The translations under genes were made by a program, and so were the position numbers. Below are positions 1,269 through 48,010 of a stretch of DNA of 64,000 nucleotides, one piece after another (position 1 is the first letter of the stretch; every line of letters begins with the position of its first letter). Source of the DNA: Chryseobacterium sp. W4I1 (GTDB taxonomy: Bacteria; Bacteroidota; Bacteroidia; Flavobacteriales; Weeksellaceae); the NCBI RefSeq assembly GCF_030816115.1, contig NZ_JAUSXQ010000001.1, positions 2,852,001 through 2,916,000 on the forward strand, read 5' to 3'. Below the pieces are notes generated by a model. The model was not told the origin of the DNA and searched no databases. It saw only the letters and a list, made by a program, of their open reading frames with translations.

Positions 1269-2814
1269 ATGTCGGAAAAAATATTATGGATAGATGATGA
1301 AATAGATTTACTCAAACCCCATATTGTATTCTTAGAAAAAAAAGGTTATCAGGTAACCCCTGTTAACAACGTGAACGAGGCTCTGGAACTCATGGACTCG
1401 GAAAAATTCGCACTTACCTTAATTGATGAAAATATGCCCGGTATTTCGGGACTGGAGGCCATTCCTATGATTAAAGAAAAAGATAATTCTTTAAAGATTG
1501 TAATGGTGACCAAAAGTGAGGAGGAACATATTATGGAAGAAGCCATCGGATCACAGATCGCTGACTACATTCTTAAACCGGTAAATCCTAACCAGATTTT
1601 ATTATCGTTGAAAAAAAATCTGCAGGAGGATAATCTTGTGGAGCAGAAAACCATTCTTCAGTATCAGCAGGAGTTCAGAAACCTCTCTATGGAGCTTTCT
1701 TATCTCAGAACTTACCAGGAATGGGCAGAATATTATAAAAAAATCCTAAGCTGGGAAATCAAATTCGATAAGGTTGCTGATAATGAATTTGCGGATCTGT
1801 TGCAGTCTCAGAAAGAAGAAGCGAATATTCAGTTTTCAAAATTTATTGAAAAAAATTATGAAGACTGGCTGACGGATTCCGAGAAACCTCTGATGAGTCA
1901 TACTCTTTTCAAAGAAAAAATAAAGCCAGAGGTGGAGAAAGAAAAAGTCCTGCTTCTGATGATAGACAATTTGCGTTTTGACCAGTGGAAGGTGATTGAG
2001 CCGTTATTTACAAAATACTACAATAAAATTTCTGAAGATTATTACTACAGTATTCTTCCCACAGCCACTCAATATGCAAGAAACTCTTTCTTTGCGGGAT
2101 TGATGCCATCTGAGATCGAAAAACGTTTCCCGGATAAATGGTTCAATGATAACGAGGAAGGAAATAAGAATGAATTTGAGCGTGATTTCCTGGAAGATCA
2201 GATGAAAAGAATTGGTTTGGGATCTAAGTCTATGAAGTATCTTAAGGTTTTGAATGCAGATTTTGAACGAAAAATCTACGATGATTTTAACCAGCATAAG
2301 AACAATGATCTTTTGGTAATTGTTTACAACTTCATCGATATCCTTTCGCATGCCAAAACAGACAACCATATTGTAGATCAGTTGATCCGTGATGACAAAA
2401 CTTTCAGATCGCTTACCTATAACTGGTTTGAAAACTCATCATTAATTAAGATCATAAAAGCAGCAGCAGAAAGTGGCTATAAAACTTGTGATCACAACCG
2501 ATCACGGAACGATATACGTTAAAAAGCCAAGCAAAGTAGTTGGTGACCGTGAAACATCAACAAACATCCGTTATAAAACAGGAAAGAGTTTAACGTATGA
2601 TGATAGCGATGTATGGGCAGTTACGAATCCAGAAAAGCTTTTCCTTCCTAAAGGAAATTTAAGCTCGAAATATATCTTTGCTAAAAATAATATTTTCCTG
2701 GCCTATCCTAAAAATTACAATCATTTTGTAAATTATTATAAAGAAACATACCAACATGGGGGAATTTCACTTGAAGAGTGTATCATTCCTATCAGTATTT
2801 TAGAACCCAAATAG
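1269..2814 (+). pseudogene. porX: PorX-type T9SS response regulator with PglZ domain, frameshifted
   Basis: The N-terminus is a CheY-like receiver (acid pocket DDE at 9-11, phospho-acceptor Asp53 in LIDEN, Thr81, Lys103 in ILKP). A helical linker follows, then an alkaline-phosphatase-like PglZ domain beginning about residue 228 (MIDNLRFDQW, then PTAT at 264-267). This is the architecture of PorX, which works with the kinase PorY in controlling the type IX secretion system. The first frame stops at 2522 after 417 residues. The rest of the domain, including the metal-binding TTDHG motif, continues in another frame to 2814. Removing one A from the run at 2481-2484 joins the frames (GYKLVITTDHG) into a 514-residue protein, about the usual PorX length. 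As written, the gene loses part of its catalytic metal site. It may be a real mutation or a sequencing error. Confidence 0.9.
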
Positions 2815-46609: not shown

Positions 46610-46818
46610 GAAGTGATGCTTGTTTTATACCCCAATAAGTAGATGATATTTTCAATTTGTTACAAGAACCATAATTTATTCTAAAATTTTATTGTTTAAT
46701 AAATTTATCCTTTATTAAAAGCATATTACAAAACACTGTTTAACTGTAAGTCTGGTTTTCTATTTATTTTTTATCCTTAACCCTCTCTAAGCCATTATCA
46801 GTGCTGGTTTCATGTAAA

Positions 46819-46827
46819 TGTGGAAAA
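46819..46827 (-). promoter_or_regulatory. DnaA-box-like site
   Basis: TGTGGAAAA differs by one base from the complement of the consensus box TTATCCACA. It lies about 215 bp before nrdB. Confidence 0.4.
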
Positions 46828-46990
46828 CTTTTCCAGTTAAAACTCAGCCAATTAGTATTTACCCCTTTCAAAATCAGTTCTTTTTTTCGAACTTTGTCAT
46901 TAGTTCTTTACAAGAAACCTCCATTCACCAATGTGAATATGTTTTACATGTAAATACCAAACATACAATAAGTTAAGCATTGCTTGCAAG

Positions 46991-46999
46991 TTATCCACA
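46991..46999 (+). promoter_or_regulatory. Perfect DnaA box upstream of nrdB
   Basis: TTATCCACA matches the DnaA box consensus exactly and lies 36 bp before the nrdB start. In Escherichia coli DnaA binds upstream of nrdAB, so a similar link of dNTP supply to replication is possible here. Confidence 0.5.
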
Positions 47000-47035
47000 G
47001 TGATGCAGATTATTTAATTTTAAAGCTATTTTAAT

Positions 47036-48010
47036 ATGGGAATTTTCGATAAGAGAGTAAGTTACAAGCCATTTGAATACCCTGAGGTTCTTCAGTTTGT
47101 AGAGGCGATCAACAAATCGTTCTGGGTGCATTCGGAAGTGGATTTTACTGCAGATGTTCAGGATTTTCATTCGCAGTTAGAGCCGCACGAAAAACACGCT
47201 GTGAAAAATGCACTGTTAGCCATTGCACAGATCGAGGTGTCTGTAAAGACATTCTGGGGAAACCTATACAACCACTTGCCAAAACCTGAATTAAACGGGC
47301 TTGGAGCTACTTTTGCAGAATGTGAGTTCCGCCACTCTGAAGCCTATTCCCGTTTGGTAGAGGTATTAGGATATAACGAAGAATTTGCCAATGTTATAGA
47401 AATTCCTGCCGTGAAAAAGAGAATTGATTTCCTTTCAAATGTCTTGAAACACGCCAATTCTACAACACCGAAAGAATATGTATCTTCTCTTTTATTATTC
47501 AGTATCCTGATTGAAAACGTATCCCTTTTCTCACAGTTTGCGATCATCCTTTCGTTCACAAGATTCAAAGGATTTATGAAGAATGTTTCCAATATCATTG
47601 CATGGACTTCTATTGATGAACAGATCCACGCCAATGCAGGAATCTACCTGATCAACAAAATCCGTGAGGAACAACCAGATCTATTAACAGATTCCGACAT
47701 CGAAGACATCTATACATTGGTAGATCAGTCTATCGAACTGGAAGGGGAAATCTTAGACTGGATCTTTGAATTGGGAGAATTAAGTGTTTTCTCAAAAGAA
47801 GACCTACTGAACTTCATGAAATACCGTGTAGACGACAGTTTGAAGAAGATCAATATGGAAACCCGTTACAACATTACTCCTGAGCAGTACCGTCCAATGA
47901 AATGGTTTGAAGAAGAAGTGTTTGCTAATTCTATGGATGATTTCTTCGCCAAGAGACCAGTAGATTATACGAAGCACGATAAGAGTATTACAGCGAACGA
48001 CTTGTTTTAA
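47036..48010 (+). CDS. nrdB: Class I ribonucleotide reductase small subunit (class Id-like)
   Basis: The 324-residue ferritin-like subunit has first-site metal ligands Glu67 (QIEV), Glu97 and His100 (ECEFRH) with Tyr104 next to it, and later E-x-x-H in IDEQIHAN. Those positions coincide with what I recall for the Flavobacterium johnsoniae class Id subunit, which uses a Mn2 cofactor activated by superoxide. There is no N-terminal ATP-cone. It pairs with the alpha subunit two genes downstream. A palindrome and a DnaA box precede it. Confidence 0.93.
   Translation: MGIFDKRVSYKPFEYPEVLQFVEAINKSFWVHSEVDFTADVQDFHSQLEPHEKHAVKNALLAIAQIEVSVKTFWGNLYNHLPKPELNGLGATFAECEFRHSEAYSRLVEVLGYNEEFANVIEIPAVKKRIDFLSNVLKHANSTTPKEYVSSLLLFSILIENVSLFSQFAIILSFTRFKGFMKNVSNIIAWTSIDEQIHANAGIYLINKIREEQPDLLTDSDIEDIYTLVDQSIELEGEILDWIFELGELSVFSKEDLLNFMKYRVDDSLKKINMETRYNITPEQYRPMKWFEEEVFANSMDDFFAKRPVDYTKHDKSITANDLF

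Follow-up and report, generated by a model that had tools for sequence, protein, structure and literature searches.

The proteins of the PorX family (NF052313) consist of a CheY-like receiver domain followed by a PglZ-type domain, the PglZ domain being alkaline-phosphatase-like. In PMC10951265, the zinc ligands of F. johnsoniae PorX are given as T271, D237, D414, H415, H364, H499 and D360. As described in PMC11320123, loss of either PorX domain in P. gingivalis reduces gingipain secretion to below 10%, and deletion of porX in F. johnsoniae leaves gliding unaffected and lowers growth on chitin by about 40%. Unlike known PorX, the PorX of Chryseobacterium sp. W4I1 is read in two frames in the genome assembly. 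The features of the gene, which lies in a 64-kb window (the whole stretch of DNA analysed, 64,000 nucleotides), are as follows, in window positions:

1269 to 2522, plus strand: first frame of porX, with the receiver domain, the linker and most of the PglZ domain (NF052313 positions 2-410 of 513)
2473 to 2814, plus strand: second frame of porX, with the remainder of the PglZ domain (NF052313 positions 403-513 of 513)
2481 to 2484, plus strand: A run, AAAA, where porX changes frame, placed by reading the sequence and by alignment with relatives
2500 to 2505, plus strand: Asp-His of the TTDHG motif in the second frame, equivalent to F. johnsoniae D414 and H415
2755 to 2757, plus strand: His in the second frame, equivalent to F. 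johnsoniae zinc ligand H499

The gene name porX, proposed in a sequence-only reading of this DNA, is confirmed by the match of both pieces to NF052313, the first scoring 578 bits against a cut-off of 300 and the second continuing the model at 185 bits, with receiver and PglZ-type domains in the order expected of the family. The two pieces also match the PorX structures PDB 8ted, 8p6f and 7pv7 end to end and in order. There is no one continuous reading frame in the assembly sequence, as the frame changes at 2481-2484: the first frame encodes 417 residues, of which the last 13, ending ESGYKTCDHNRSRNDIR, are off-frame before the stop at 2520-2522, while the second, which has a GTG start codon at 2473, is conserved from about 2485, reads KLVITTDHG and is open to 2814. 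All seven F. johnsoniae zinc ligands are found across the two pieces, four in the first frame (residues 233, 267, 357 and 361) and three in the second; we infer an offset of three between the numbering of the paper and that of the chain, and each residue so mapped is the expected amino acid. The same reading was therefore right that the TTDHG metal motif is absent from the first frame. Judged from its sequence, the two-frame structure is beyond chance, since both frames hold conserved PorX sequence and since the frame is open in the genomes listed in a survey of the genus. In that survey a porX match was present in 173/173 genomes, the source genome included, and the frame is open over 515-542 residues in each other genome among the matches listed. 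Weaker survey rows lie outside those matches, G148 (75% complete) and G179 (two matches) among them. The W4I1 genome yielded no second porX: all 19 remaining matches there are weak and confined to query residues 1-174, on the receiver-domain side.

Comparison with relatives places the change precisely. The stretch 2475-2493 around the A run is one base longer in W4I1 than in 80/80 aligned relatives, in agreement with the one-base lengthening of the run that had been read from the sequence. The gene could be extracted from 20 of 26 relatives' loci tried, and in all 20 it has 514 codons in one frame. Both pieces share one frame in 105 of the 106 relatives' loci tested (80 from protein matches and 26 from DNA matches), the sole exception being that of Chryseobacterium sp. 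E1 (L082, CP078104.1). The closest relatives place the strain in Chryseobacterium: C. rhizosphaerae, C. panacisoli and C. endalhagicum are among the best protein matches, at 98% identity, and at the DNA level the nearest of 38 other genomes matches at 87%. A database search with the 417-residue piece gave a 514-residue cluster as its top match, at 96% identity, and no strain identical to W4I1 is named among the best 120 of its 7999 matches. Programmed frameshifting, or a separate C-terminal protein starting from the GTG at 2473, would account for the start codon and for the conservation of the second frame, but no shift is needed in 80/80 relatives and the shift site is not shared, and we consider such an explanation extremely improbable; the second frame is no gene of its own.

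Similar lesions occur in unrelated genes of this assembly. When 464 kb of the W4I1 assembly was compared with the relative G022, 10 multi-frame cases were seen among 298 covered genes, and six of these, after a sorting into six and four that was our own judgement, are frame breaks in coding sequence, with exactly one base more in W4I1 in each. The reverse comparison gave none in 309 genes (6/298 versus 0/309, Fisher p 0.014), and there is thus an excess of such lesions in W4I1 of the kind expected from assembly indel error. An A or T run is lengthened in five of the six genes, these five gains sitting in short runs and the sixth change in no run, and no one-base losses were seen in the interiors of the six genes. 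Each gene carries one lesion, with no spread of ages, and its two pieces differ by 0.2 to 10.8 points in identity to the relative, so that none of the six is an old, many-times-broken gene, although strongly decayed genes may have escaped the filter. The six include the sole NF004863 (malate dehydrogenase) match in the genome. This gene (L140:2890-3814) changes frame about 30 residues short of its end, where an A run has one base more than in G022.

The remaining four cases were dropped from the count. In case 2923364, which shares its position with RNase P RNA of the opposite strand, the extra base is not in a protein gene; the RNase P RNA itself (L144:7370-7694) has one extra base relative to G022, which is real in the comparison. 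From the alignments we judged cases 2817934 and 2996804 to represent a leader or sequence of weak similarity, the former having one base fewer in W4I1 upstream of a likely start codon. Case 2701536 is an N-terminus that diverges from the relative, its alignment containing 26 gap columns. An ab initio scan of coding potential over 664 kb, made up of the 464 kb and a further 200 kb and amounting to about 14% of the genome, ranked porX first among 152 candidate pairs, many of which resemble ordinary gene overlaps, and included the other five known cases. Eight further candidates were inspected, and trpB alone (L183:9499-10693) was confirmed by family models and relatives. Its two pieces cover model positions 1-218 and 207-383, and one of its A runs exceeds that of 5/5 aligned relatives by four bases; its halves are in one frame in 4/5 relatives, and in L193 the motif test found none. 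No match in the W4I1 genome passes the trpB family cut-off, the sole good match being the split gene. Two further genes appear split and are candidates, one for a T9SS-tail protein (about 2804478) and one of efflux type (about 2009521).

Comparison of the window with five relatives, covering 30 to 46 genes in each, showed porX as the sole frame break in coding sequence. The window ORFs gave no multi-frame case in any of the five, and the relatives compared among themselves gave 0 to 2 multi-frame cases per comparison (20 comparisons, cases not individually inspected). A multi-frame signal at 46783-47046, seen with one of five references, was rejected as the leader upstream of the nrdB start; the leader query is likewise divided between two frames in G022, G004 and G012, but keeps to one frame in G020. 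The leader (46790-47035) is strongly conserved in the five relatives, with 78-92% identity over about 435 bases, and gave no match to Rfam at E up to 1. The elements TTATCCACA (46991-46999) and TGTGGAAAAC (46819-46828) within it resemble DnaA boxes, a putative assignment.

It is highly probable that the organism carries an intact porX and that the extra base, at a short A run, is an insertion error left in the assembly. We infer the insertion error itself from this pattern of extra bases of the same kind in unrelated genes, which makes sequencing error the most likely origin, and the single contig of 4,621,265 bases suggests that long reads would have been its source. Such error is the best explanation in that it accounts for the frame breaks with one cause, and it is supported by the presence among the broken genes of the only malate dehydrogenase match and by the splitting of the only good trpB match. 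The claim that porX is broken in the organism is, as such, probably wrong, the imbalance between W4I1 and G022 being the pattern of residual assembly error. Against this, the completeness of 99.98% (contamination 0.64%) indicates an assembly that is not riddled with errors, porX is the sole coding frame break in the window and the rate of breaks is modest, and trpB differs by four bases rather than one. A mutator strain truly gaining bases in homopolymers, with porX as one of many sites, would be consistent with several run-length gains in one genome and with the four-base gain in trpB. However, mutS and mutL are open and over their family cut-offs, which also supports assembly error, and of the six changes, all of them gains, five fall in short runs and the sixth outside any run; we regard a mutator as very improbable.

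A true and very recent frameshift, fixed for example in culture and producing a receiver-linker protein whose PglZ domain is incomplete, is unlikely, but deserves more weight than a mutator. The base is present in an assembly of high completeness, and porX deletion is tolerated in F. johnsoniae according to PMC11320123. Against a true frameshift are the similar lesions in unrelated genes, the single lesion and lack of spread of ages in all six broken genes, and the intact porX at nearly all of the relatives' loci, which equally favours assembly error. Nor is there decay after the lesion: median dN of the W4I1 gene to 20 relatives is 0.022 before the lesion and 0.020 after it, compared with 0.019 and 0.016 for the relatives among themselves. 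Constraint is thus not relaxed as in a pseudogene, which supports assembly error, although a very recent lesion would look alike. If the lesion were nevertheless real, this Chryseobacterium would have just lost the end of the PglZ domain but still possess the receiver and linker. Signalling by PorX would then have been parted in nature from its phosphodiesterase, and the strain would offer a natural experiment on which of the two domains is required for type IX secretion. W4I1 appears to have the type IX machinery, judging by SprA, which is open over 2344 residues, and by T9SS-tail proteins, with 81 of 83 matches over the cut-off. The gliding defect that had been predicted from the lesion would not be the expected outcome, given that gliding survives porX deletion in F. 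johnsoniae in the account cited above. No phenotypes should be drawn from the gene losses in this assembly, including those of porX, malate dehydrogenase and trpB, before the reads are checked.

The W4I1 lesions can be compared with the gene-fragmenting indels of long-read assemblies. According to PMC12007338, deletions are more frequent than insertions among long-read errors, and insertions occur mostly after A or T. Unlike the errors described there, all six changes in W4I1 are insertions, and the lack of deletions in gene interiors counts to that extent against assembly error. Like the indels of PMC12007338, the W4I1 changes are of single bases, many at A or T, in genes that are intact in relatives. 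The porX of Chryseobacterium sp. E1 (L082:3001-4539) is likewise frame-broken, with two frame changes at other places of which the second restores the first frame, and the conserved sequence between them suggests that this, too, is assembly error.
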